Below, one piece after another: positions 3,959 through 46,229 of a stretch of DNA of 64,000 bases. The position numbers and the translations under genes were made by a program. The first letter of the stretch is position 1; the number at the start of each line of letters is the position of its first letter. The notes below the pieces were generated by a model that saw only the letters and a list, made by a program, of their open reading frames with translations, was not told where the DNA came from and made no database searches. Source of the DNA: Sphaerolaimus hirsutus (Eukaryota > Nematoda > Chromadorea > Monhysterida > Sphaerolaimidae); contig OZ038459.1 in the NCBI GenBank assembly GCA_964036195.1, positions 6,073,206 to 6,137,205 on the forward strand, in the 5' to 3' direction.

Positions 3959-4309
3959 TTATACATTGCCTCTATGTTTTCGGCCTCGCGCTTGCACATT
4001 GCCTCCAAAATTCTGAGAAGATGACTGATTAGATGGTGCTAGTTGAGATATTACAGCAGTCATAACATCAGTCTTAATTTCTTGTGCAAGTTGCTGAATG
4101 GAATTCCTACTGCGCGCATACTGTGACTCTCTATCGTCAGGAGTGCTGAAAATGCAATTTCCTGCCTTATGTGTGTTCACTCGACACTTAGGACAGTACC
4201 TATCATATCGACACTCATGTTGTTTGTGGCCTCGGCGGCCACAACGATGACATGAAAAGGCCCTAGCATACCTGCGCTCAGCATCCATGGGACGCGGCGG
4301 CTTCATCAC
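3959..4309 (-). CDS. Gag-like nucleocapsid exon with two CCHC zinc knuckles
   Basis: The frame opens at an acceptor (TTGCAG just before 4309) and ends with a stop at 3959-3961, giving 116 residues. Two retroviral zinc knuckles of the form C-x2-C-x4-H-x4-C are visible: CHRCGRRGHKQHEC and CPKCRVNTHKAGNC. A basic C-terminus follows (ARGRKHRGNV). Such knuckles bind nucleic acid in Gag nucleocapsid domains. The exon joins in phase 0 with the exon at 4399-4896 across an 89-bp gap with GT and AG ends. Its position downstream of integrase is unusual. Confidence 0.75.
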   Translation of the reverse strand: MMKPPRPMDAERRYARAFSCHRCGRRGHKQHECRYDRYCPKCRVNTHKAGNCIFSTPDDRESQYARSRNSIQQLAQEIKTDVMTAVISQLAPSNQSSSQNFGGNVQARGRKHRGNV

Positions 4310-4398
4310 CTGCAATGTTTAAACATTTTGGCTATCGTGTCAAGTAAGATTGAAAATTTAAATATAGACATTTTAAACAGAAAATAACAAGTACCAAC

Positions 4399-4896
4399 CA
4401 CCGGTGTGACTGTGCCCAGCGGTTGCGCCCTAATGGGCGGCACCTCCCTATCTATTTCATCACAGGCCAAACCCTCAGATGGCCATGGATGCATCAGCAG
4501 CTCCTGCCGGCCGGCACTGGTGCCGGGAGCCGGCGCACCCACGTTCATCACCTGCCCAAATTGTGTGTGCCTCGGGTCCAAGTTCACCGTGGGCATTCTG
4601 AACAACAAGTTGGACGGTTCGAAGACCTCGCTGCTGGCCACCGGCCAGTGGGTGCTGCGGTCGTGCCACTCCGTCAGGAAGGGGCGCACTCCCACTGTGA
4701 AATGCATCACTCCACCTCTCACACGCAGCCACACCCTCTTCAAGTAGGGCACCTCGTACTTGTGGACACAATGATGCATCTCTATCATTCTGTCTGACAA
4801 AGCAGGCCAGCGATGGCATTCCACCATTCCCACCAGGGCTCCATCTTGAGTGACCTGGATCGGCACCGCCTGAGTCACTGCCAGCACGGTGAAGGG
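4399..4896 (-). CDS. Gag-like upstream exon, overlaps the pol tail in another frame
   Basis: A 166-codon frame starts exactly at an acceptor (AAATTTTCAG before 4896) and ends at a GT donor in phase 0 with the zinc-knuckle exon. The segment has no recognised fold, but its junction with the CCHC exon suggests it is the middle or C-terminal part of Gag. The pol frame also stays open here in another frame down to 4475, so one of the two is probably fortuitous. The strong acceptor favours this exon. The upstream partner exon is inferred, not seen. Confidence 0.55.
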
Positions 4897-7800
4897 CTGA
4901 AAATTTAGAAATTTTTTCTTTACTTATCATACAATTCAAAACTTCACTCCTCTTCATTTTCTTAGCTTCAGCATCTCCAACAACTTTACAAATACGTCTA
5001 AAAGGAATAAGTTGCGCAGGGCGATCCGGCTCGCCTATTGCACCCACATACGCAGCACTATTCAAAACTTTGCGAACCACCAATGGTCCCAAAAGTTTTG
5101 GCAAAAACTTACTAGTCTGGCCAACCTTTGGCACAAATACTTGCCTCACATAAACAGCATCACCTACTTGCAACTTATTTTTTTCCAGCTCAACCTGTTT
5201 AGCTGTAGTCTGCTCATATTCTAGTTTATTTTTAATTGCAGTCCTCCATGCCTGATAAATTGACTCTCTAACAAAGCCAATAGCTGATTCACTCGTTCTC
5301 AACGCCAAACTAGGCCGACTCAAGGCATCAGGCAAGAAAAACAGATTTGGCCGATGTCCAAAAACTACTTCAAAAGCGCTCATGCCAATGCTTGCAGAGT
5401 GACTGGTTCTAAGAGCCAGCATGAGCATAGGCAGGGTCTCGTCCCAATTCTCATGACTCCTAGCATACTGCGTAATCATTATACCCAAAGAAGTCTTGAA
5501 ACGGTGCCAATTCTCAACTTTATTTGACTGTGGGTTAGCAAGTAACACATTTCTGTGACCCACATGTAAAAACTTAAAACATTCCCGCAATGCCATCAGA
5601 TTTGCACCATGATCACTGATGCAGACTCTAGGGAACCCCGTAAATGAAAAAACATGAGTCATTAATGCCTGTGCAATAGTAATTGTGCGCATGTCAGACA
5701 GAGGCGCAGCAAAGGGATAACTAGAAAAGGGGCAAATGGTTGTCACCACTGCCTTGTATTGACATGTGGCACTGTAATGCATGACATTTGAAATATCAAA
5801 ATACAAAACATCAAAAGGTTTGTCAGCTTGTGGTAATTGGCCGTGTGGTGAAACCACCTGACCCGTTTGTCCCTTGTGTGCAAAACACTTTGCACACTTC
5901 CTAATATATTCAACTACATCATTATAGGCATTGTGCCAATAAAAACAATGTAGCAGTCGCTGGTAAGTTCTCGATGCGCCCTGATGTGCTCCCCAACCAG
6001 ATGCATGATGCAAAGCCATCACTGCACGACGCATGTCTCTCGGCACATAAAGTAACAAAGCTGGCTCTAAACCAGGCTTTCTCTTGTCAAAAAAATACAA
6101 AAGATCATCCTCCAGTACATATTGCTGGGCCACCAGAACCACCCTCCTTGCTAAGGTTGAGTTTACTGGCAGGTTTCCATGCACCAAAAATTCCTTCATG
6201 GCGGCACAGAACTCATCTGAAACTTGTCCATCACGGAACTTTTGTACAATACCATCTTCCTCTAAAAAATCAGAAAAGTTTTCCTTGTCGTAATCAGATG
6301 CACTAGGAATCTGGCTTCTAGCGATCTGATCTTGCGTCTGATCCATCTTTGGGTCATTTGGGATGACCAGAGAATGACTAACTCCCTGGTCATTTGTCAC
6401 CACAACATTTGGTGTCACTGCTCTTATCGCAGCGGCTGCTGGCGCACTATTTTGCCCATCACTATGAATGTTTGCTGCAGGAACTGCAGTCACACCTGCA
6501 TTTACAACCTTGACCCTACTTCTCGTTTGCATAACTTGCAAGAGATGCTTTTGCACATGATCCTTAACTGTTTGCTGCAATTCACACGAATCACCACAAT
6601 CTTCCCCACAGATCTCCATGCGGTCATCGTTCAAGATTGCCTCGGATGGGTCTGGCACCATTTCTGGTTGACGTGACACATCTTCAGCTGAAAATTCCCT
6701 AGACAACACATCTGCTGGGTTGGTTTTACCAGGGGTGTATTTTATTGTTACCCCCGGAAAGGAGCTAATTGCCACTGACCACCTAGCTACCCTAGGATTT
6801 TGTGCGTGCTTATCTCTCAGTAAATAACATGCAGCCGCACAGTCAGTATGCACTTCAACTTTATAACAGTAAATAATGCTGCGCCAGTGAATTAAGGAAG
6901 ACACAATGGCAAGCATTTCAAAATCATAGCTGGCCATGCGTTGTTCCTGCTTGGACAGCACCCTAGAATAGTACCCAATTACATTGTGTCTATTCTTGTC
7001 AGATTTTTGCGACAAAATGCCAGAAATCCCCCTTTTGGACCCATCAGTTCTCAATTCAAAACCTTTATTGTAGTCTGGTGCTGCCAAAATTGGCGCCTTC
7101 ACCAGCTGATCCTTCAACCACTGCCATTCTTCCTGTGCATTATCGTTCCACACAAAGGGTTGATTATCCTTTCCGGTTAACAACTTATTCAAATGTCTCG
7201 TATGAAGTGCAAAATCCTTAATCCAACTCCGGTGCCAGTTTGCCATTCCAAGGAAACTGCGCACCCCAGTCTTGTCCTTTGGTGGGGGTAATTTACAAAT
7301 TGCCTCCACCTTTTCTTTATCCATCTCCCTACCTTCCCTACTTATATATTGTCCTAACATTTTCACCCGTCTAGCAGCAAAAACAGTTTTTTTGAGCGAA
7401 ATGCGAAATCTGTAGTGGGCAAAACGCTTCAAAGCGTCCTCTACGTCATGCACATGGTCCTCCACCTTGTCAGACACCGTGCAGACGTCATCTACGTAAG
7501 TTAGGGTTTTTCGACTGTTCCAAAAGATCACGGTCATGGCGAGAGAAAATATTGATGTGCTCGATGAGGACCCCTGTGGTAAAGAATTAAATTTTAAAAC
7601 ACCACGCGCAGTTGAAATTGCAAACAGATCTTTACTGTTTTCAGACAATTTTATCATGTCATAGGCGGACAATCCATCAAAGGTGGACCACACCACGCCC
7701 AATAAAAGTTTTTCTAATAACTGTTTCAGGGGTGTCACATTTCCTTGCTCTAAACGGCAAAGCGAATTGATTTTCCTCAAATCAAACACCGTACGCCAAT

Positions 7801-10672
7801 TTTTTATTGACGGTATCTTTTCCGGCTCTGCAGTAGGCTTCCAAACCAGAAACACAGGACTTGAAAAACGGCTTACTCCAAACTCTGCTAACCCCAGAGA
7901 TATTTGCCTTACTAGCCAATGATCGAGGATTTTCTCTTCAAAAAAACTAATAGGGTATGGGCGTGATTGAAAACCAGGATGATTTTCATCTTTCAGCCGA
8001 ATGTCTGCAACAAGGGCACTACAGGAACTCCTGTTTGCCAACTCTAACACGAAAACATCATGATAACGTAGTAACATTTCCATGAACTCCTGTTTTTGTT
8101 GTTCATTCAAAACAGTGTCTTTGAAATTTGCGTCTCGCTTAATTATTGCATGTCTTTCTTCCAAGCTAAGTTGCGGCACCATAGGTTTCGCCAAATTTGG
8201 TAAACTCAATCTATTATCGTCTTCATAATTCTCTTGCACAGTTACTGTAGCCACTGCATTTGGTGAGTCTCTTCTAGCCACTTCTGCTGCCTTTTTCAAC
8301 TCTGTCAATCTTGCTTTTCCGGCGTCATCTGACATCGCCGCTATAGACTCTGGGAACACCTGAGCCATACTCACTTCATTTAATATCATTGAAGACAACT
8401 TGGCTTCTGGGTGTATTGTTTGCAAACAATCTAACCATTCGCCCAAACGTTGCTGGCATTCATCACCAGTCATCCCTAATTTCTTAAATTCACTTCCATA
8501 TTGCGACGTGAGCAACACAGGGACTTGTGTACCCCTTTTGGTCGTGTGACCAGTAATATACACTGGCGTCTCTTGATCCCCTAAACTACTGGGCTTGGTT
8601 GGCGCCGAAATCAAAATTTGCTTTTCCGGCACCATTCCCAGTGCTCTGTGCATGATTCCTCCTAGCTGAGTGACCTTCACCACGGGCCTATCACTGGGCA
8701 CCGTGATGTCACTCCTATTTGGATTGAATACTGGAACCGAGCCAGACAAAACAAAGCTCTTACGTTCCTCATCAAAGTGTCGCCTTAAATCAACCAGCGT
8801 GGGATAGATTTTTATACGATGAACCCTCATCATTTTATCTATCGGAGCACACACATAATTGCGTTCCAGCTTTCTGTCCTTCAAAACCATTGTCAAAAAT
8901 TCCTGAGTAATATCAGGCGCATAAATAGACACAGATGTGACACTAAGTGGTTTTAATTTTACACGCTCCTTAGTGTGCATGACCACAACATGATTCACTC
9001 CCCGGCCCTTAGGCACATTAAAACGTATTTTCTTTCCCGTAATGAATTTTATCTCTCCCATGTCCAAGTTTTTATTGTCATTTCCTCGATAGAAGGTGAC
9101 TTGAAAATCTCCCCACTGTTTCAAAGTTTTGAACCCGATGTACACATCACTAGTAATTCCTTCCAACACTAGAGCATGCACATTGAACAATGTGCCATCT
9201 ATAGCAAGTTGCACATCGCACGTGCCAATCGGCACCATATCAGCGCCATCTGCTACCGTAATGGTGATTTGCGTGCTTTTATAGGGAATCTTCAACTTGT
9301 CAAGCAGTCTTTTATTTAAACATGACATAGATGCCCCTGTATCTATAATACAGTGCACTTCTATGTCCCTAATCATTCCATGGGCACTCAAAACTACCCC
9401 TGTGCCCGCAGCCGCCAGATGGCCAGTCATAGGCAGAGAATTCAGCTGATGCACAGTGGTCGTTGCAAAAATCATGTGCATGCGACCGTGCAACTCATTC
9501 GTACGGCCCTTTTGCTCATGAGCCGCTTTATTCTTAAACCTAGGCGCTTTTGCGCCTCTGCTGTACACACACCTTCTTTGCTTATTTTTCAACAGATCTT
9601 GAATTTGCCTCAATTTCCTTTCCCACGTGTCTCCCTCAAAGCCCTTCCACACAGCCATATTCTTTTCCAACACATCTTTTGCCCTATCCGTAAACAGTAA
9701 AAATCCAGACAAGGACAGCACACTGCTCAACACCCTAGTGTGCAGAGAAAAATTAGGTTCTGTTTCGAACGCCCCGACCCCAAACTTATCGAGCGGCCAT
9801 TTCTCAATCTGAGACAATAGCGCACATTTTGGCGGCAATATGCTTGATGCACTTGAACATCCACTCATTGGCTCACTGCCACTCACCCACACAGACCTCT
9901 GTGTTGTGGGCTTGTTCAACACATTCCACACGCACACGCTAACCAACGCACACACAACCATCATACATTCACACCAATCGACCACACTGACCCAAAAACA
10001 TGTCTCATGCATTACACCCCTCCAGGTAAATACACAATCAGCAGGCGTGACAATCAACGCAAGCGCCAACAACACTAGAAAAGGAACTTGCTGCGGGGCT
10101 CGCACGCGCATGGATGCCACCACTTCAGACTGAATTTGTTCGTCAAAGTCATTTTCTTCTCTGGTTTGCTTTAAGGTGCGCAGCAATTGCGGCCCCAGAC
10201 GCACCCTAGGTATGCGAACCCTATTTCCAGAATAGTCACTTCCACTCACATACCGAACAGGCAGGTCAAGCGTATTTGGCCTGTCCACTTGCGGTCTGTC
10301 ACCAAAAGCATCTGGCTTCTGTTGACCGCTACCTACACCAGAATTTGTCACATGCATTGCATACTGACGTCGCACCCAAGCTATTCCCATTCCTACCATT
10401 TTTACGGGCCATTTACATGCAGTCATCACTGCGCTACGAAAACCCTCATAACGCACACACAAATAAATGAGCCCCATTACTAACAATGTAATGAAAATCA
10501 CCCACAGAATATTCAATACTAATTGAAATGGTCCCCTGATGGCTTTCGGAACGGCACTAGTAGTGATCATATGAACCACATCAAACTCATGGTCAATCAC
10601 GCGACCAGATGCATTCAACAGCAGCTCACCAGCATGAGTCACCATGTGCTCTAGTCCCCGCCCGTGCAACAT
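4475..10672 (-). CDS. pol: Pol: envelope anchor, protease, RT, RNase H, integrase
   Basis: A 2065-codon frame. Residues about 49-73 form a strong membrane segment, best read as the C-terminal anchor of the envelope-like protein upstream; another hydrophobic segment lies near 195-215. The aspartic protease has DTGAS at 444-448. The reverse transcriptase carries SLPQG near 1030 and YVDD at 1059-1062. RNase H begins at LRTDGSKRG (about 1207). Integrase has the HHCC zinc site (ALHHASGWGAHQ to CAKC, about 1553-1596) and a DDE core with D1626, D1687 and E1720. The PR-RT-RH-IN order and motif style place it near Gypsy/Metaviridae. The last 140 or so codons overlap the Gag-like exon in another frame and may not be real coding. 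All catalytic motifs look intact. Confidence 0.9.
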   Translation of the reverse strand: MLHGRGLEHMVTHAGELLLNASGRVIDHEFDVVHMITTSAVPKAIRGPFQLVLNILWVIFITLLVMGLIYLCVRYEGFRSAVMTACKWPVKMVGMGIAWVRRQYAMHVTNSGVGSGQQKPDAFGDRPQVDRPNTLDLPVRYVSGSDYSGNRVRIPRVRLGPQLLRTLKQTREENDFDEQIQSEVVASMRVRAPQQVPFLVLLALALIVTPADCVFTWRGVMHETCFWVSVVDWCECMMVVCALVSVCVWNVLNKPTTQRSVWVSGSEPMSGCSSASSILPPKCALLSQIEKWPLDKFGVGAFETEPNFSLHTRVLSSVLSLSGFLLFTDRAKDVLEKNMAVWKGFEGDTWERKLRQIQDLLKNKQRRCVYSRGAKAPRFKNKAAHEQKGRTNELHGRMHMIFATTTVHQLNSLPMTGHLAAAGTGVVLSAHGMIRDIEVHCIIDTGASMSCLNKRLLDKLKIPYKSTQITITVADGADMVPIGTCDVQLAIDGTLFNVHALVLEGITSDVYIGFKTLKQWGDFQVTFYRGNDNKNLDMGEIKFITGKKIRFNVPKGRGVNHVVVMHTKERVKLKPLSVTSVSIYAPDITQEFLTMVLKDRKLERNYVCAPIDKMMRVHRIKIYPTLVDLRRHFDEERKSFVLSGSVPVFNPNRSDITVPSDRPVVKVTQLGGIMHRALGMVPEKQILISAPTKPSSLGDQETPVYITGHTTKRGTQVPVLLTSQYGSEFKKLGMTGDECQQRLGEWLDCLQTIHPEAKLSSMILNEVSMAQVFPESIAAMSDDAGKARLTELKKAAEVARRDSPNAVATVTVQENYEDDNRLSLPNLAKPMVPQLSLEERHAIIKRDANFKDTVLNEQQKQEFMEMLLRYHDVFVLELANRSSCSALVADIRLKDENHPGFQSRPYPISFFEEKILDHWLVRQISLGLAEFGVSRFSSPVFLVWKPTAEPEKIPSIKNWRTVFDLRKINSLCRLEQGNVTPLKQLLEKLLLGVVWSTFDGLSAYDMIKLSENSKDLFAISTARGVLKFNSLPQGSSSSTSIFSLAMTVIFWNSRKTLTYVDDVCTVSDKVEDHVHDVEDALKRFAHYRFRISLKKTVFAARRVKMLGQYISREGREMDKEKVEAICKLPPPKDKTGVRSFLGMANWHRSWIKDFALHTRHLNKLLTGKDNQPFVWNDNAQEEWQWLKDQLVKAPILAAPDYNKGFELRTDGSKRGISGILSQKSDKNRHNVIGYYSRVLSKQEQRMASYDFEMLAIVSSLIHWRSIIYCYKVEVHTDCAAACYLLRDKHAQNPRVARWSVAISSFPGVTIKYTPGKTNPADVLSREFSAEDVSRQPEMVPDPSEAILNDDRMEICGEDCGDSCELQQTVKDHVQKHLLQVMQTRSRVKVVNAGVTAVPAANIHSDGQNSAPAAAAIRAVTPNVVVTNDQGVSHSLVIPNDPKMDQTQDQIARSQIPSASDYDKENFSDFLEEDGIVQKFRDGQVSDEFCAAMKEFLVHGNLPVNSTLARRVVLVAQQYVLEDDLLYFFDKRKPGLEPALLLYVPRDMRRAVMALHHASGWGAHQGASRTYQRLLHCFYWHNAYNDVVEYIRKCAKCFAHKGQTGQVVSPHGQLPQADKPFDVLYFDISNVMHYSATCQYKAVVTTICPFSSYPFAAPLSDMRTITIAQALMTHVFSFTGFPRVCISDHGANLMALRECFKFLHVGHRNVLLANPQSNKVENWHRFKTSLGIMITQYARSHENWDETLPMLMLALRTSHSASIGMSAFEVVFGHRPNLFFLPDALSRPSLALRTSESAIGFVRESIYQAWRTAIKNKLEYEQTTAKQVELEKNKLQVGDAVYVRQVFVPKVGQTSKFLPKLLGPLVVRKVLNSAAYVGAIGEPDRPAQLIPFRRICKVVGDAEAKKMKRSEVLNCMISKEKISKFSALHRAGSDSGGADPGHSRWSPGGNGGMPSLACFVRQNDRDASLCPQVRGALLEEGVAACERWSDAFHSGSAPLPDGVARPQHPLAGGQQRGLRTVQLVVQNAHGELGPEAHTIWAGDERGCAGSRHQCRPAGAADASMAI

Positions 10673-10716
10673 ACTTGCAGTATGGGCGCTATCAATAGAA
10701 AACAGGCTAGTGTAAT

Positions 10717-11376
10717 TAGGGTGTCAACAAATTTTTTTTACGGAAAACGGAAACGGAAACGGAAAAAAAATTTCAGCGGCCGGAAAACGGAACGGAAAAC
10801 GGAAAAAAATTTGCACTTGGCGGAAAACGGAAACGGAAACGGAAAAAAAAATTCAGTGGCCGGAAAACGGAAAAAGGGGCCGGAAAAACGGAAACGGAAA
10901 AATGAAATTAGCATGGAAATGGAAAAATTTGCTGAAATTTTGCCAGAAAACAGATAAAATTTTCTGAAATTTTGCTGGAAGTCAAAGAAATTTGCAGAAA
11001 TTTTGCTGGAAACATAAAAAATTTACATAATTGACAATCTGCATGAATGTTTACCAGTTCGGCTGGAACAGAAAACAGACATTTGAGCCAGAAAAAGGTC
11101 AAATGTGGCGGAAAGAGAGAAAATTGAGGCGGAAAACGGAAAAAATCCGTAAAAACTGGAAATTGAGCCGGAAAACGGAAAAAAGGCGGAAAAACTGAAA
11201 ATTTAGCCGGAAAACGGAAAATGAGCCGGAAAAACGGAAACGGAAAAAAAGTGGCCGGAAAACGGAACGGAAAACGGAAAAAAAATTTTAGCAGCCGGAA
11301 AACGGAACGGAAAACGGAAAAAATTTGCCTGCGGAAAACGGAAACGGAAAACGGAAAACGGAAATTTGACACCGTA
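10717..11376. mobile_element. Family A hAT-like element inserted in the retroelement
   Basis: The ends are TAGGGTGTCAA and TTGACACCGTA. The 8-bp duplication AGTGTAAT is exact at 10709-10716 and 11377-11384. The 660-bp interior is an imperfect GGAAAACGGAAA minisatellite without coding content, so it depends on a transposase supplied elsewhere. It cuts the envelope-like region just before its membrane anchor. The same family forms the outer element at 1109/15382. Confidence 0.92.
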
Positions 11377-14109
11377 AGTGTAATGAATTAACCTATCCAA
11401 CTTTTCCCGTGCCTCAACCTGGCGCATGTGCAAACTACGAATATTTGCATACATCATGGCATTTTCCATTACCATTCCAGGCCGAATCAAAGTACGATTG
11501 AATTTGATTCCATCTGACAGAAACTTTGGATGTACAAAGGCTGGGGTGTGGTGCATATTCACCTTCACCATATTTCCGTCAGTCAAGGCTAAATAGGTTC
11601 CATTTTTGGATTTGAATACAGGTGATTGCAATTGAGAGCAAGGCACCTGATTGGCATGCTCCACCAGATCCTGAGATCCTGGTATTTTGAATAAGAGCTT
11701 TCCATGCACTCTCACCGGCATCATATCATAACAGATTCCATTTACCTTATGGGACATGTGAAGTCTCTCAGGTTGAACCTTGTGACAAGCTGTGACAGAG
11801 AGCACGTCACCAGCGTATTCAGCATTTATATTTTCATCAGCAAGCAATAATCTTGCTGCGGCCACAGGCGAGATGTGAGCCAATGCCCGCACCATCAATG
11901 CATTGCTGCGCGCTAACACACAAATCTGATGCCTTAAGGTTTCAAAATTTTGATGGGCTTGCTGTGTCAGCACCTGGTACATAAACTGGTGCTGTGTGGC
12001 TGCATTAGGAGTCAAATTTCCACTCCAAAACTCTGCAAAGGTCATTTTGACCGTCGACGCACACTTCTTCTTAAACATAATTTGGCACATGCTTTCAGTT
12101 GAAGAGTTATCTATTTGCAAAATGGACAGCAGCAGGCCCTGATCTGTCAAATACACTGCTGGCTCCAGGCATTGTATGTGCACCGGGCCACCCTTTATAG
12201 TAAAAGCACTTTGTTCGTGAATCAATATCACAGTTTCATTTTGCCTCTTCCCGGGAAAGTTACCCACATGTTCAAAAGGACAGGAAGCCGGTGCCAAAGT
12301 GGTTGGTTCCCAAAATAACACCCCCCTGCTGCTGGTACAGCGCCCAGCAGCTGGGCTACAAGTAGGTGCAGCATCCATATCCGTAATAAGTTGCTGATTA
12401 TCAAATGTAGCTACAGTTCCCTGTGTCAAAATGAAATTATCAACATGCTGCTTAAAACAATCATTCCACGTAGGGAATTGCAAATCAATGCTTTTCATGG
12501 TGGACCAGACCATTGGTTCAATCTGTTTCAGGCCCGACTCACGCGCGTGACCGTCACGCACCGCGTGGAACATTTCTGCACATTTCTCAATCGGCATTGG
12601 TACATAACTATCATGATATTCATAAATGTAATGGGCAAATAAAGCATTTGTGCATGTCGTCACCTCGTGACGTCTAGCTTGGCAAAAGGTTGCATTTGCT
12701 GTCACAGGGCGACGCCTCTGTGCATACACTGACACTGACACGTCATAAACAGGTGACAGTTCAGACTCACCAAATAACGTTGAACTGTACAAGTTACATA
12801 AGGGTATTTCGGGTAAATCTAGATACCAAGCCCCTGTAGGTTTAGAGCAAATTTGAAGCAACATTGGGTCTGCCGTGACCTTCACAAATAACAGGGCCAC
12901 ACTCAATAGCCGGATCGCCCTACTCCTAAATCCACTCAACAGTAAAATCATCAAAAACAAAACCACACCAACCAAATTTTCCTGGCACGGTTTCTGTCTG
13001 TTCTGCCCATCTGGCATGAGTGGGTCCACATACGTCTGCTGCCTCGATTTGAGCATGAATTGGTCCCCCTCGGGCGTGCTGACGACCCTGACGACCTTGT
13101 TCTCCGTGGCCAGCACGCGCAGTTGCTCCACCGTCACTCCAAAAGTCATCTTGCTGATATTGATAGGGTGCTTGTTGTGCACTGCCAGAGACAGCGAGCG
13201 ACTAGCGCGCCAGCGCAGTGCCAACGCCATGTTACAGGCGCATCTCTCCACCCTTTCCCTGGACACCAGCCTCATCACTTCTTTCGGCACTATCTCGCTG
13301 CGTATCACTCCTGTGAAATAAATAGCACTTTTCATTTCACTCAACTTGACAAAACTGCAATTTTTTCCATCTTTCCTAAGACTGGCAAAAATCCAATCAA
13401 CCCCCTCAAAATGCTCAAACTTACGCAGAAGCGTCTCCACCACAGCCATCACCGTGACTGGTGTCATCTTCAACGAGTGGCTCATTGTCAGGTGCTCCAC
13501 ACAATCCAAATACGTGAAACACATCACTCCCGATCCGGGCACCCTGTCCATGATATCCTTGGGCTTGACCAGGAAGAAATACTGGTGTTCAGTACACACC
13601 ATAGGAATGCGGCCCATCACCACCGGCGGCCTCAGTAGCAAGTCTCTGATTAAATGATCATTTCCCAATGCAGAGGCCACCATCAAATTTACGCCCCACC
13701 AGTAGCAATCGACGTTGTCCCCGTTTGGTGGGTCCCCCGTTGGATTATTTGGGTCATTTTCTGTATTATTTCCATTTCCCGAGCCCCCTGGCACCTCGCC
13801 AGGATCGTTACGCAGCGCGTTGGCGCGGCGACGAACTTCTTCTGTAGCAAATGTTCTCTTGACTGCCTTAAGTTGCGCTAGTAACCCATCCAGTCTGGCT
13901 AGGTAACTGCGGCACTGTGCACGCAGCGCACGGTCTTCAAAAGAGTAGTCCTTGCCTTGCAAAATTTGTTGCTGGCGGGTGATATTATCAATCTGCTCGT
14001 CTAGCTCTTCCATGGTTCTAACATCCACCACCTTTTCAGGGAGCTCAGGTAGCACGAGCTTTCCTTCGGCGTCCAACTCAGGTACCAGGGGTGGCAATGG
14101 AAAGACCAT
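11203..14109 (-). CDS. Retroelement 5' frame: coiled-coil N-terminus plus envelope-like region, interrupted
   Basis: The first 911 or so codons are element-encoded; beyond that the frame runs into the hAT insertion. Residues 30-100 look helical and charged (possible coiled coil), followed by a low-complexity Gly/Asn/Pro stretch (100-130) and a globular part to about 370. A hydrophobic segment (379-412) then acts as a possible signal or internal membrane segment. The next 500 residues are cysteine-bearing with several N-x-S/T sequons, as in a glycoprotein ectodomain. Its C-terminal third reminds me of glycoproteins of some negative-strand RNA viruses (chuvirus-like), a weak recollection rather than an alignment. 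The membrane anchor lies beyond the insertion, in the pol frame. The product is truncated here. Confidence 0.75.
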   Translation of the reverse strand: MVFPLPPLVPELDAEGKLVLPELPEKVVDVRTMEELDEQIDNITRQQQILQGKDYSFEDRALRAQCRSYLARLDGLLAQLKAVKRTFATEEVRRRANALRNDPGEVPGGSGNGNNTENDPNNPTGDPPNGDNVDCYWWGVNLMVASALGNDHLIRDLLLRPPVVMGRIPMVCTEHQYFFLVKPKDIMDRVPGSGVMCFTYLDCVEHLTMSHSLKMTPVTVMAVVETLLRKFEHFEGVDWIFASLRKDGKNCSFVKLSEMKSAIYFTGVIRSEIVPKEVMRLVSRERVERCACNMALALRWRASRSLSLAVHNKHPINISKMTFGVTVEQLRVLATENKVVRVVSTPEGDQFMLKSRQQTYVDPLMPDGQNRQKPCQENLVGVVLFLMILLLSGFRSRAIRLLSVALLFVKVTADPMLLQICSKPTGAWYLDLPEIPLCNLYSSTLFGESELSPVYDVSVSVYAQRRRPVTANATFCQARRHEVTTCTNALFAHYIYEYHDSYVPMPIEKCAEMFHAVRDGHARESGLKQIEPMVWSTMKSIDLQFPTWNDCFKQHVDNFILTQGTVATFDNQQLITDMDAAPTCSPAAGRCTSSRGVLFWEPTTLAPASCPFEHVGNFPGKRQNETVILIHEQSAFTIKGGPVHIQCLEPAVYLTDQGLLLSILQIDNSSTESMCQIMFKKKCASTVKMTFAEFWSGNLTPNAATQHQFMYQVLTQQAHQNFETLRHQICVLARSNALMVRALAHISPVAAARLLLADENINAEYAGDVLSVTACHKVQPERLHMSHKVNGICYDMMPVRVHGKLLFKIPGSQDLVEHANQVPCSQLQSPVFKSKNGTYLALTDGNMVKVNMHHTPAFVHPKFLSDGIKFNRTLIRPGMVMENAMMYANIRSLHMRQVEAREKLDRLIHYTYGVKFPFSVFRFRFPQANFFRFPFRFPAAKIFFPFSVPFSGHFFSVSVFPAHFPFSG

Positions 14110-14451
14110 TGTGAGTTGACTGGGGTCTAATTGTTTCGTATACTATGCGTACTCCCGTATTGAATGGGTACTTGGAAACCAGGGGACTTGCAAAGTGAGA
14201 CAGGCGCTTCGCACCTATTTCACCAGCACTGCTGTGTTTTTATAGACACCAGGTGTCTATCTGCTCGCAACCTCCAGGGGTTGCCTGCTGTGTAAAGCAC
14301 AAGGCTTTCTTCTGTGTGCCAAGTATGGCTTCTGTCGCCAAATTGGCTTCCCCCCAACACAAAAAATTTGTCTCAAATTTTATAACTAATTATCAATAAA
14401 ATGTCAAACGTACCAGGTTCGTGTCGTTGCGTGGCGCCACAGATGATCACC
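14110..14451 (-). other. Retroelement 5' leader
   Basis: Untranslated stretch between the 5' LTR and the first frame. On the minus strand TGG begins at 14453 and a TGGCGCC word begins at 14439. Either could start a tRNA primer-binding site, but neither extends into a convincing match to a T-arm, so I do not name the primer. A short GGTGTCTATAAAAACAC-type segment near 14240 is AT-rich; function not assigned. Confidence 0.5.
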
Positions 14452-15115
14452 ACTTTTCTATGTGAACTGTGACTCAAACCTTTGCAGTCAACCGAGTCCA
14501 CGACTTCGACCACGACGAACTTCAGGAGGAGGACAAAGGAGCCCGGCAGCTTCACAGATGTCATACGATGTTAGTGTATGTTTATTTGTGCGCACGTTTG
14601 TGAAGTTAGGGTTCAATGTCTTTGTGCTGAGTTACTAAATAGCCAACGCAGCCGATCGTTGCCTGGCACCTGTTTATTGATGGTAAAATACTTCAATGTT
14701 TCACAAAATACTCACGAAATACTCGGATCACACGGCACTGAATCCTACAGCACCAGCTCGGTATTCAGGTTCACGAAGCACTGTCACACAGACTTTCAGC
14801 TACTGTTTTCAGCTGTAGCTTGGCTTAGCTAGCTTTCAGATATCTTTCGCATCACGGTTCTGAACCCTGAATACCTCACCGGAGCTCTCTTTTATACTCA
14901 TCCACCCGCCCACATAGGCTTAGCTCACACAACATGACAGACACAAACATCATTTTTCTAACAAAACTGTAATCCCTTTGCCCGATTGTAAATGGGCCAG
15001 CCAACCTACGTCATACTTCCTAGTAACCACGGCAACAAGCCAAAGTACAATAGATATTCTAGTTCATGGCAAAACGCCAATAATTCAATAAATCTTATGG
15101 CAAAAAGCCAACAAT
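14452..15115 (-). repeat. 5' LTR of the retroelement
   Basis: Near-identical partner of 1619-2280. It abuts the right part of the split family A element. Two or three terminal bases present beside the left LTR (ACA after CCAACAAT) are absent here, so this end may be slightly trimmed. It contains a TATACTCATCC-like segment on the plus strand, but no promoter can be assigned with confidence. Confidence 0.88.
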
Positions 15116-15382
15116 GAGCCAACACTGAAAATTGAGCCAGAAGACGGAAAAATGGAAATGGAAAGGTAAAAAATTTTCAGCCGGAAAACAGAAAAGTGGG
15201 CCGGAAAAACGGAAATGGAAAGGTAAAAAATTTTCAGCTGCTGGAAAACAGAAAACGGAAAGGTAAAAAAATTTCAGCTGCCGGAAAACGGAAAGGTAAA
15301 AAATTTTCAGCTGCCTGAAAACGGAAAGGTAAAAAATTGTCCTGCAGAAAAGCGGAAACGGAAACTGAAATTTGACACCCTA
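15116..15382. mobile_element. Family A hAT-like element, right part
   Basis: Carries GGAAAGGTAAAAAATTTTCAG repeats like those at 1150-1200 and ends in TTTGACACCCTA. The flanking ATTGTGTT (15383-15390) matches 1101-1108 exactly, proving that it is the other end of the element interrupted by the LTR retroelement. Confidence 0.88.
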
Positions 15383-43276: not shown

Positions 43277-46229
43277 TCACCTCTTCACATCCAAAAGTCT
43301 AAAACTGTCCTTTCTGTTCGTCTCACTTTGTTCCCCTTTACTCATTTTCGTTTTTGTCAGCCAGTAGAACAAAAGCGGGTTCCACAAAACTGTGGACATT
43401 GCCATTGCGTTCGTTGTCAACAGTGTGATGTAGGGGATTTTGTGAATGAAATCTGGCAGGGAATCTGAAATTTGATGTTTTTGTGTTTTTTTGCATGAAT
43501 TTGTCAGTGTATTTTACTGTGTGTATTTTACTTGTGCTAATATTTAGGCACAGCTTGCTTTAATTAGCCTACCTATGTAGAAGGATAAAAATAGACCACT
43601 GGAATAATTCCCCCATTTGAGAATTTGTTAGTGAGATAGATTCTGATCACCAGAGATTCCGGTTATTTACTTTTATTACAATTTCTATTCAGAGTGCAAT
43701 TCACAACGAGTACTCGAATAATCCCCCAGCCAAAGAATCTTACATTTCCAACAAAAATGTTTAGGTAAGCAGAAACAGTTTTTAAGCTGTCTAAACATCA
43801 AATGCAAACAGCTAAAACAGCTGGCAGACTCACTGAAATCCCTCAAAACATTGATCAAAGTAATGGGAAGCCAAGAGAAAATGAATGCAGCCACCATTGA
43901 TACCATAATATAATTAACTTTTCTTTTCATTCTGACTGAAGCCTGCATTTGTATTCTGGACAGCACTTGACTGAACTCTTTGTTGTCACAAATGAGATTT
44001 TGTTTCACTGTGGCAAAGATTTTGTAGTAACAATATGACATAATGGCTGTGGGCACCAGGAACTGTGCTGTTAATATGGCTGCACTGTATACTTTTCTGA
44101 GACCATCACTCTGTAAAAAGATAGGGGGTAGTGAGATCAGTTCAAAGTTCTTAAATCAGTTTGTCTAATCGGATTAGGTATCTATATCTACCTATTTATA
44201 TTTGTTATGACAAATACAGTCTAGTTTACACCTGGTGCCAACCCCAGACCCTGTAAAGTGCAAAGTAAAGTGTCAAATCTCATGACAAATGTAAAGTAAA
44301 GTGTCAATTGTCATACAAATTTCGAAAGTAAAATCTTTTTTTGTTGTTTTATTGACTGCTCCCTGTTTTAATTGTGTAGACACTCTGATTGGAAAAAAAA
44401 GTTATACCACACTTACGGTAAATTGGAATTTCAATGTTATTCTGATCATTTTTAGTCCTAAAAGACGATCAGAAAATCTCCAGATATTGAGCTTCAAATT
44501 CGTGAATGTATTGTAGCCACTCACCACTTACATTAGCCCACAAAAATCGAAAATTCAATCACTTGCCTGCCAGTCTTCCTCACAAAAATAGCCACACAAC
44601 CCTCCATTTATCAGATGCCCATAAAATTCTGGTCCGTGTACCAATTTGGTGTGCTTTACATATGGAATGTTGAGCACCGCACTGGTGATCCACATACCCA
44701 AAGTTGTCAGCGTAGCGCACCTGCACTTTTTGTTGGACAAGATTGATAAGTAAGGGACACACTACGGTTGGGAAACCGACCCAACCCGAACCCGATACCC
44801 GCACATTTTTGGAACCGAAACCCGACACCGGATACATGAACACGAAAATTTTGTGATTCCTATCCTAAGGCTAACCCTAGCGCATACACACCTTTAAAAG
44901 TTGAAAAGTCCAAAATTTCGAATATTGTGCTAAGCACAGAAACAGCATATATTTAGAACTGGTCCCACACATTCAAAATATTCTAGTTTTTATCCAACGT
45001 TAAATTCTTCTTTAAGTGTTTGTCACATTTTTACAATTCTGGGACATTTAGGAACAAAAAATGTACGGCAAGAAGCCGATAACTCCACGCTGTATCTAGC
45101 ACAAGTTTTTGCCACGGACAAGAAGACGGAAGTCGATAAACAAGTGCACATGTTCGCGGAAATTGGCGAATACAAATTTCTCTTCAATTTTTTTCATATT
45201 TATTCGTTTTCCGTTCAGTCAGCTGTTATCACTGTACCATAACACATTCGAATAAAAAACCCTACCTCATGCCAGTTGGCGGCGCGGCCGGCTGTATGAT
45301 ATGCACAAATTTGTCCACTGCAATCACAGTCAAACTCCAGGGGGCAGTCCCAGACCCTGTAAAATTATTTGTAACCTGTCAAATGTCATGTAAAGTGTGA
45401 AAAGTCATGGAAAATGCCCTGGAAAATGGCAAACGTTTTTGTAATTGTTTAGGGCATTTGACATGACTTTTGACAGTTTACATAACATTTTACATTTTAC
45501 AGGACATTTACAGGGTCTGGGATTGGCACCAGCTAGTCACCAAAACGCTAGTGCTTTGCAACAAAGGCACGACACTGCACAAAACTGCGCCAAACACCCA
45601 ATTTTTCAGATACAATGTGATCGGCGTCAAAGTGACATTGATGCAGCACAGCAAAATGTCCGCTGCCATCAGATTTGCCAGAAAAATGTTTCTGGCATAC
45701 GATCTCAGATGTTTATTGGTCATTACTTGTGTCAGGACATAACTGCGGACGTGGAGGGATTTGTGCGGACTCCAAAGTTTGGAGTGGATTATTGCAGTGT
45801 TGAATCAAACAGTAAATAACTGGAATTGTATTTTAAACAGTCATTGTATTGTAAATATTAAATGTTTATTATCTTGGTATTAAAAATATTTAAGTATTAT
45901 GTCTAAAATACCAGCTTTTCAATGTTCTCTTGTACACTTGTAATAAAGCCCTTCAATTCAAGTCAAGTTTACGATATTTAAAACTGTAGTGCACCCAATA
46001 CCCACCCATTAAAAATGACACCAATAGCAAATATGGCACCATATAACAGTCCAAAAAGTAAGCGGACACACAAATATTCCGTGTGATCCGGTTTGATAGC
46101 ACCATTCGGCTGAATGCACTCTGCCGCGATTTCCGTAGTTGTCACAGTTTGCAAAACTCTGTATACGCCGATTGAGTCATAATTGTCAACTGTGACGATT
46201 GACGATAAGTTTGAATAGAAATCTTGCAT
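43277..46229 (-). CDS. Neuropeptide-type (NPY/NPF-like) GPCR, six exons, TM3 interrupted
   Basis: Exons: 46229-45985, 45742-45530, 45337-45266, 44720-44567, 44110-43834, 43464-43277; 382 residues if joined in phase. A class A receptor for a peptide ligand in the plasma membrane. Seen: GVIFNGWVL (TM1), LANLMAAD (TM2), W-x-F-G-x-x-x-C (before TM3), IAVDKF in place of the usual DRY, CEEDW in the second extracellular loop, FIFSWLPITLIN (TM6), and NPLLFYW (TM7). An extracellular N-terminus with an NLS sequon precedes TM1. NPY/NPF, RYamide and tachykinin receptors share these traits; I favour the first but cannot exclude the others. Intron 4 uses GC-AG. Between exons 2 and 3 the only intervening sequence is a family I element without a canonical acceptor at the required position. 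Confidence 0.82.
44225..44330. mobile_element. Family I fragment
   Basis: Left end GGTGCCAACCCCAGACCCTG followed by repeated AAAGTAAAGTGTCAA words. No right end is found. Intronic in the GPCR gene. Confidence 0.55.
45340..45530. mobile_element. Family I element separating GPCR exons 2 and 3
   Basis: Plus-strand ends GGGGCAGTCCCAGACCCTG and CAGGGTCTGGGATTGGCACC, an 18-20 bp imperfect inverted repeat. On the coding strand TGG stands on both sides (45531-45529 and 45339-45337). The element accounts for everything between the two halves of TM3. Confidence 0.75.

Follow-up and report, generated by a model that had tools for sequence, protein, structure and literature searches.

A damaged copy of a giant long terminal repeat (LTR) element of the Ty3/gypsy type (Metaviridae) was recognized, by its repeats and domain order, in a stretch of 64,000 nucleotides (nt) from the nematode Sphaerolaimus hirsutus (assembly GCA_964036195.1, contig OZ038459.1, positions 6,073,206 to 6,137,205; the whole stretch is called the window below). 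The element lies on the minus strand in the order gag, exons of a further gene designated X, envelope, protease-reverse transcriptase (RT)-RNase H-integrase, and two further exons of X. The sequences show that gag is a separate gene and that the short introns inside one giant reading frame are, in nearly all copies checked, stop-free and multiples of three in length. It was proposed that X is produced by splicing around both envelope and pol, and that X regulates the unspliced RNA; taken together, this reading is considered probable. As exons upstream of the envelope appear to be spliced to exon 2 downstream of integrase, envelope and pol would lie inside an intron of X.

Results

Exons and splice sites of gene X

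Copies of the element were searched for in the 348 Mb genome. The family labels were coined in this analysis: F1 is the family of the window, F2 has an RT of 93-96% identity, F3 and F3b have an RT of 77% identity, and the other families are more distant.

Exon 2 (4399-4896, minus strand, 166 codons) and exon 3 (3959-4309, minus strand) are located downstream of integrase. The alignment of this region contained 30 of 40 matched places, the window included, of which 18 were 93-100% and 12 were 72-73% identical. The two acceptor CAGs, ahead of 4896 and of 4309, and the donor GT that follows 4399 were each present in 30/30 copies. The exon 3 frame was open in all 30 copies and the exon 2 frame in 28, one stop and one frameshift being recorded. 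The ratio of nonsynonymous to synonymous substitution rates (dN/dS) between F1 and F2, calculated from 42 pairs of 13 of the 30 loci, was equal to 0.12 for exon 2 and 0.10 for exon 3; the pol frame, the tail of which is overlapped by exon 2 in a different frame, gave 2.4 over the same exon. Purifying selection acts on both exons. Exon 3 encodes two CX2CX4HX4C zinc knuckles, both in the frame 4309-3959, and has a coiled-coil-like stretch, a basic C-terminus and a stop; the best Pfam match to a knuckle had an E value of only 0.39. The acceptors and zinc-knuckle exons that the original prediction had placed after integrase were thus real.

Upstream of the envelope, the window retains the 3' part of exon B (13425-13713; its 5' part is deleted here), the B/C intron (13311-13424; 114 nt, GTAAGT..CACAG, phase 1, stop-free and in frame) and exon C (12973-13310), all on the minus strand. 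Exon C ends with TTG at the donor GTTGGT (GT at 12972-12971). This donor, 12973|12972 (TTG|GTTGGT), corresponds to residue 379 counted from the ATG at 14109, and is the site anticipated near residue 376, at about 12980, just before the hydrophobic segment. Its GT was kept in 15/15 F1 copies, as GTAGGT in 12 and as GTTGGT in 3, including the window. Three further exons, E1-E3, may belong to the X message as candidate members; a basic stretch, PVRRSKRPQRPSRRR, was found in E3 of the copy L071.

In a distant family with an envelope of 47% identity, matches to exons 2 and 3 were still located downstream of RT (C2:15640235-15648712 and C7:14893851-14902321), hence the X layout seems to be old within this host.

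By analogy, X may be an RNA regulator. The main competing proposal on its function makes X a further structural or packaging protein, similar to a nucleocapsid or associated with the envelope, rather than a regulator of RNA export. Such a role would agree with the two zinc knuckles and with the upstream X exons being in frame with gag and envelope. However, Gag has its own zinc knuckle, and a separate long-spliced message resembles those described, in the available parts of the sources, for CERV of the retrotransposon Cer1 and for Rev (PMC10309623, PMC3315495). A structural role was therefore considered somewhat unlikely.

The giant open frame

An RT frame longer than 5,000 codons was detected in at least 28 of the 121 matched places scored among 1,383 first-look candidates, all counts of this survey being lower bounds. 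Such frames were found in 6 of 18 F1 copies (5,695-5,715 codons), in 8 copies of F2 (5,026-5,844), in 13 copies of more distant families (5,073-6,806) and in one relative of 32% identity (5,784). An identical frame length was reported for the pre-envelope exons and the envelope in 27 of the 28 (the relative of 32% identity is not in those two lists), so that these parts share the frame of RT.

The gag gene sits in one open frame in the copies L069, L071 and L072, three of the four 10-kb stretches; this frame has at least 2,839 codons and is still open where each stretch ends. One copy on C3 has a frame of 5,701 codons, and its gag lies within the open stretch L069; gag in the same giant frame was read directly only in F1. 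The X exons, envelope and RT of intact copies are, as read from their frames, in one frame of 5,000-6,800 codons. Hypermutation as the reason for seemingly frameless sister copies was rejected: the substitutions carried no such bias, and the frames ran to the ends of the stretches.

Long frames were also seen elsewhere in the genome. Single frames of ~3,740 codons occurred in many copies of a large distant gypsy family (RT 28%), and another group, whose glycoprotein is related (27-30%), had frames of up to 2,911 codons. At C4:27117615-27121219, C3:24525345-24528951 and C3:14896867-14900473 the envelope is only ~0.9 kb away from exons 2-3; since this gap is too short for pol, these copies are likely derivatives that lost it.

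Introns inside the frame and the drifting spacer

GT..AG edges were found in 4/4 F1 copies for the segments i1 (228 nt), A/B (111 nt) and i2 (90 nt). The spacer, i3, was 3,021, 3,021 and 3,030 nt long in three open copies and 3,026 nt in L070, and B/C was 114 nt long (once 108) in 15/15 F1 copies. In all the F1 copies checked (4/4, 4/4, 4/4 and 15/15, respectively), i1, i2, A/B and B/C had lengths divisible by three and contained no stop. All the in-frame introns were of phase 1, as computed for i1, i2 and A/B and read from the sequence for i3 and B/C. Intron 2/3 (4310-4398, minus strand), which lies outside the giant frame, was used as a control and was constrained in neither length nor stops: 29/30 copies contained stops in the exon 2 frame, and the lengths ranged from 64 to 132 nt with all residues modulo three. 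In the sole copy without stops the intron was 89 nt long, which is the length in the window too.

The ratio of the proportions of nonsynonymous and synonymous differences (pN/pS) was estimated for L070, L071 and L072 from a nucleotide-guided alignment. Values of 0.09 for gag, 0.59 for codons 850-1100, 0.11, 0.24 and 0.42 for E1, E2 and E3, and, before the envelope, 0.09 for exon A and 0.01 for exon B1 were obtained. The corresponding values were 0.72 for i1, 1.08 for i2, 0.97 for A/B and 0.74 for the spacer of ~1,000 codons.

A piece of the spacer compared with L071 had a protein identity of 61-74% in ten F1 copies and of 92-100% in four others, despite RT of F1 being 98-99% identical to that of the window. 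Only partial matches of 30-41% were found in F2, and no more distant family was among the matches listed. The other two forward frames of the L071 spacer contained 66 and 97 stops, and 200 dinucleotide shuffles gave a mean of 50 and a minimum of 34. In a protein-guided alignment of the L071 and L072 spacers, 562 differences included 0 nonsense changes, when 19.8 were expected at random. The openness of the spacer has thus been favoured over a long divergence, yet seems less strict than in the coding exons. The spacer may also hide a further small exon.

The neutral-looking open segments could alternatively be fast-evolving linkers of a polyprotein, the long frame being mostly coding. The frame is open in several families, the pN/pS of the spacer is about 0.74, a patch of ~125 amino acids is weakly conserved into a second subfamily, and the matches of F2 continue through B/C and those of F3 through A/B, all of which linkers would explain. 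On the other hand, GT..AG dinucleotides stood at the segment edges, in phase 1, in the copies checked; the F3 matches break at B/C and the F2 matches at or near the edges of A/B, i1, i2 and i3; and B/C is exactly absent from the copy L073 described below. Linkers were regarded as unlikely. Returning to introns, we suggest tentatively that they act as frame-keeping spacers, ~1,000 drifting codons being selected to stay open for the sake of a polyprotein of ~5,700-6,800 residues or of an escape from decay, with splicing as the switch to X.

A DNA record of the long splice

At one of the 70 matched places for exon 2, L073 (C4:24373183), this exon and the pre-envelope exons lie in a common frame of 461 codons. 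Against five F3b copies, L073 aligned as three pieces (query 22-498, 491-833 and 833-1949), which are contiguous in L073 and separated by ~150 nt and ~7.5 kb in the five copies. The gap edges were read in two of the five and were AAAG|GTGAGC...TTTCAG|CTGTG and TACTTG|GTTAGT...TTTTCAG|CCCTTC; L073 joins both to the base. The first junction corresponds to the end of exon B, and the homolog of the B/C intron is missing; at the second, the homolog of the exon C donor has been used, and the homolog of exon 2 follows directly. Because L073 is contiguous exactly at both pairs of GT..AG edges, it derives from an RNA spliced of the B/C intron and of the whole envelope-pol stretch. The exon 2/3 donor of L073 reads GTG|GTAAGT and lies where that of the window was inferred; the copy is incomplete at its 5' end. 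A related family hence carries a record, exact to the base, of the long phase 0 splice that had been predicted to skip envelope and pol and reach the zinc-knuckle exons, and the sites of this splice are conserved in F1.

The pieces of L073 are 82-94% identical to present elements, and L073 was therefore taken as derived rather than ancestral. That L073 arose by chance deletion of DNA, or is an ancestral gene poor in introns, instead of a copy of spliced RNA, would be compatible with the intron that it certainly kept and the second that it apparently kept, but the two gaps are independent and both match GT..AG sites to the base, which makes this explanation highly improbable.

Location of gag

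The 5' frame of the window (14142-11203, minus strand, 979 codons from stop to stop) is composite and crosses a deletion at about 13726-13714. When the query 14150-12900 was aligned to other copies, it matched as two pieces ~8.1 kb apart, and only the window's own row among 41 spanned it; the window copy therefore lacks a stretch of ~8.1 kb. Along with the spacer, the deletion removed the greater part of gag and the first exons of X. Its junction (13714-13726) consists of ~12 nt of filler and has no GT/AG, so that splicing was ruled out as the cause of the gag-to-X fusion in the window. Within the missing stretch, the sister copy L070 contains Retrotrans_gag (1.7e-7) and zf-CCHC (1e-5) domains. 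Since gag lies there, the 5' frame of the window opens with the start of Gag, ~128 residues (13726-14109, minus strand) that match the beginning of gag in other copies, and the ~250 residues that come next, as far as the donor, are part of another gene. Judged by these domains, gag is a separate contiguous gene that is mostly deleted from the window copy. No Pfam match up to E 1, and hence no capsid domain by sequence, was found in the pre-envelope exons and exon 2; the first gag frame of L070 had no match among solved structures.

The first part of the 5' frame had originally been suggested to be the N-terminus of a Gag assembled across envelope and pol. This holds for the first ~128 residues, while the following ~250 are X exons fused to them by the deletion; likewise, envelope and pol do appear to lie inside an intron, but its host gene is X. 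The spliced product is not Gag, as the Gag domains fall in the ~8.1 kb missing from the window copy and it is X exons rather than gag that are joined to exon 2 in L073. A gag that is itself split, with its N-terminus upstream of the envelope and its nucleocapsid downstream of integrase, is hardly credible: true Gag residues begin the 5' frame, and the sites of the long splice are conserved and its use is recorded in DNA, but the gag that encodes Retrotrans_gag and CCHC is found in the stretch absent from the window copy, and L073 links the X exons to exon 2.

Other features of the window element

The matching parts of the 5' LTR (14452-15115) and the 3' LTR (1619-2280), both on the minus strand, are 99.2% identical over 664 nt, their outer and inner ends being approximate. 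No target-site duplication or exact element ends could be established around the LTRs. A candidate primer-binding site, TGGCGCCACGCAACG, is located on the minus strand at 14425-14439, immediately internal to the 5' LTR, and reads TGGCGCCACG from 14439 down. The LTRs and the order of protease, RT, RNase H and integrase are those of Ty3/gypsy elements, and the Retrotrans_gag and CCHC domains were found in the sister copy L070.

All the domains are encoded on the minus strand. The envelope (11389-12972) comprises a hydrophobic segment and the ectodomain of a class III (gB-like) fusion glycoprotein. It matched PF24664 (Monjiviricetes_fusion) with 1.4e-13 and 50.1 bits, above the curated cut-off of 27, and can thus be assigned to the Monjiviricetes (chuvirus-like) glycoproteins. 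The match to PF00606 (gB-like; 1.6e-8, 34.8 bits) was under its cut-off of 43, and chains of solved glycoprotein B matched from E 0.0018. The glycoprotein of the window copy is broken by a CGGAAAA minisatellite insert (10717-11387, minus strand); other copies are ~0.67 kb shorter at the same place. Further blocks of the CGGAAAA type lie at 15145-15338, beyond the right LTR match, and at 1131-1226, ~0.4 kb beyond the left one. The aspartic protease (9116-9379; PF13650, 9.6e-11), RT (7346-7807; PF00078, 3.3e-17), RNase H (6758-7150; PF17919, 1.2e-26, and PF17917, 7.6e-25) and integrase H2C2 and core (5570-6046; PF17921, 4e-14, and PF00665, 0.003, below cut-off) domains follow.

No relatives of the envelope were found outside this genome among 7,995 candidates, and the RT relatives outside it, among the best 120 of 155 matches, were generic gypsy elements only, with 25-35% identity. 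The NCBIfam scan returned chance matches only. Apart from the element, the window contains a separate open frame at 43685-44155 (minus strand), which resembles an exon of a neuropeptide-type G-protein-coupled receptor.

Discussion

The unspliced RNA would serve both as the genome and as the message for a Gag-X-Env-Pol polyprotein. The openness of the frame would protect this RNA from decay and/or give access to pol. The spliced RNA would yield X, an RNA-binding protein that would act on the export or handling of the unspliced RNA, similarly to CERV of Cer1 or Rev.

Several observations weigh against this model. It was built from genomic DNA sequence alone, and the regulatory role of X was drawn only from the layout, the zinc knuckles and the basic stretch. 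X was traced without its 5' end and start codon, no homologs of exon 2 were found outside this genome among 53 candidates, and a single-sequence fold prediction of exon 2 gave a predicted local distance difference test score (pLDDT) of 29.8, too low for the model to be used. L073 is one single copy of a related family; it keeps the exon 2/3 intron and apparently also an intron upstream of exon B, and so represents a partly rather than fully spliced X message. Only 6/18 F1 copies hold an RT frame of over 5,000 codons, and in L070, the fourth of the 10-kb stretches, the frame is broken in at least three places. The B/C intron is 158 nt long, and so not a multiple of three, in the F3b copy C7, where the frame is short, and 159 nt in the F3b copy C12, these two copies having been read. 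In the 650-codon spacer piece, one or two stops were present in 4/15 F1 copies (11/15 were stop-free); elsewhere in F1, stops were seen in 1/15 copies in the preceding 548-codon piece and in none of the envelope or RT rows. The spacer, with its pN/pS of about 0.74, could be a fast-evolving protein, and dN/dS in short windows was noisy, ranging from 0.35 to 6.7 within the spacer. Finally, the nucleotide-guided alignment showed 5 apparent stops in the L072 spacer, with gaps of 7 and 4 nt; they were taken as a misplaced frame, because neither the own frame of L072 nor the protein-guided alignment has any.

The closest likeness in the layout was found to Cer1 of C. elegans, as described in the available parts of the publications (PMC10309623, PMC3315495). 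In Cer1, Gag and Pol come from an unspliced RNA of 8 kb and CERV from a spliced RNA of 2.4 kb; CERV is required for the export of the unspliced RNA and has its exons 1-3 and 5 in the polyprotein frame (PMC10309623, PMC3315495). Cer1 is likewise a Gypsy/Ty3 element with a long gag-pol frame, a spliced mRNA joining polyprotein-frame exons to a 3' exon after pol, a 3' acceptor TTTCAG or TTGCAG, and a product separate from Gag (PMC10309623, PMC3315495). A message of this type, joining polyprotein-frame exons to exons past pol, is indicated in S. hirsutus by the conserved sites and the DNA record of one copy. Unlike in Cer1, as far as its available description goes, the splice proposed here removes the envelope as well as pol; there are two 3' exons, the first in a non-pol frame and the second with CCHC knuckles; and the frame is far longer, with a long intron that shows little protein conservation but is mostly open. 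The Cer1 primer-binding site, TGGGGGCCG in the part of the source available (PMC10309623), was not found, the candidate in the window being TGGCGCCACG.

In its layout, the element also resembles Burro/GYPSM1 of planarians, which, in the available part of its description, has a giant frame (4,873-5,140 amino acids in Burro) with Gag first and an env with matches to a mononegavirus fusion glycoprotein, in frame between gag and pol (PMC6431247), as was found here. BIR, ankyrin, BCL2, MATH and dUTPase domains, which are present in Burro, had no Pfam match in the frames scanned of the window and L070, apart from ~1.8 kb upstream of the pre-envelope exons in L070. A gene spliced around env-pol sets the S. 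hirsutus element apart, as none appears in the available Burro description (PMC6431247). A fusion glycoprotein of the Monjiviricetes/chuvirus type in an LTR element is shared with elements that carry envelopes of chuvirus origin, among them Anakin (PMC7642597, PMC10084718, PMC12440569); unlike in these, as far as the available descriptions go, the envelope lies here inside the gag-pol frame and, by the present reading, inside an X intron.

Each component of the layout has a precedent, and the combination is that of Cer1, with its spliced CERV, and Burro, with its in-frame env. In the literature covered by titles and abstract openings, with few subscription papers, no report was recognized on introns held open inside the frame of a retroelement or on envelope and pol inside the intron of a third gene. 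Rev of human immunodeficiency virus 1 is made from a spliced message, the intron of which holds other viral genes. X would be similar in layout to such regulators, its spliced message having other genes in its intron (PMC10309623, available part).

How retroelements export, protect and translate an unspliced RNA that contains introns is a long-standing question. The many copies and subfamilies in this genome provide a natural experiment on it, in which the short in-frame introns are stop-free in the F1 copies checked, the spacer has stops in 4/15 close copies and the out-of-frame intron in 29/30. Further, the DNA fossil L073 reveals, from DNA alone, the junction that was used. If X is truly a regulator of the CERV/Rev type, this layout would be a recurrent solution, now met in an element with a captured envelope.

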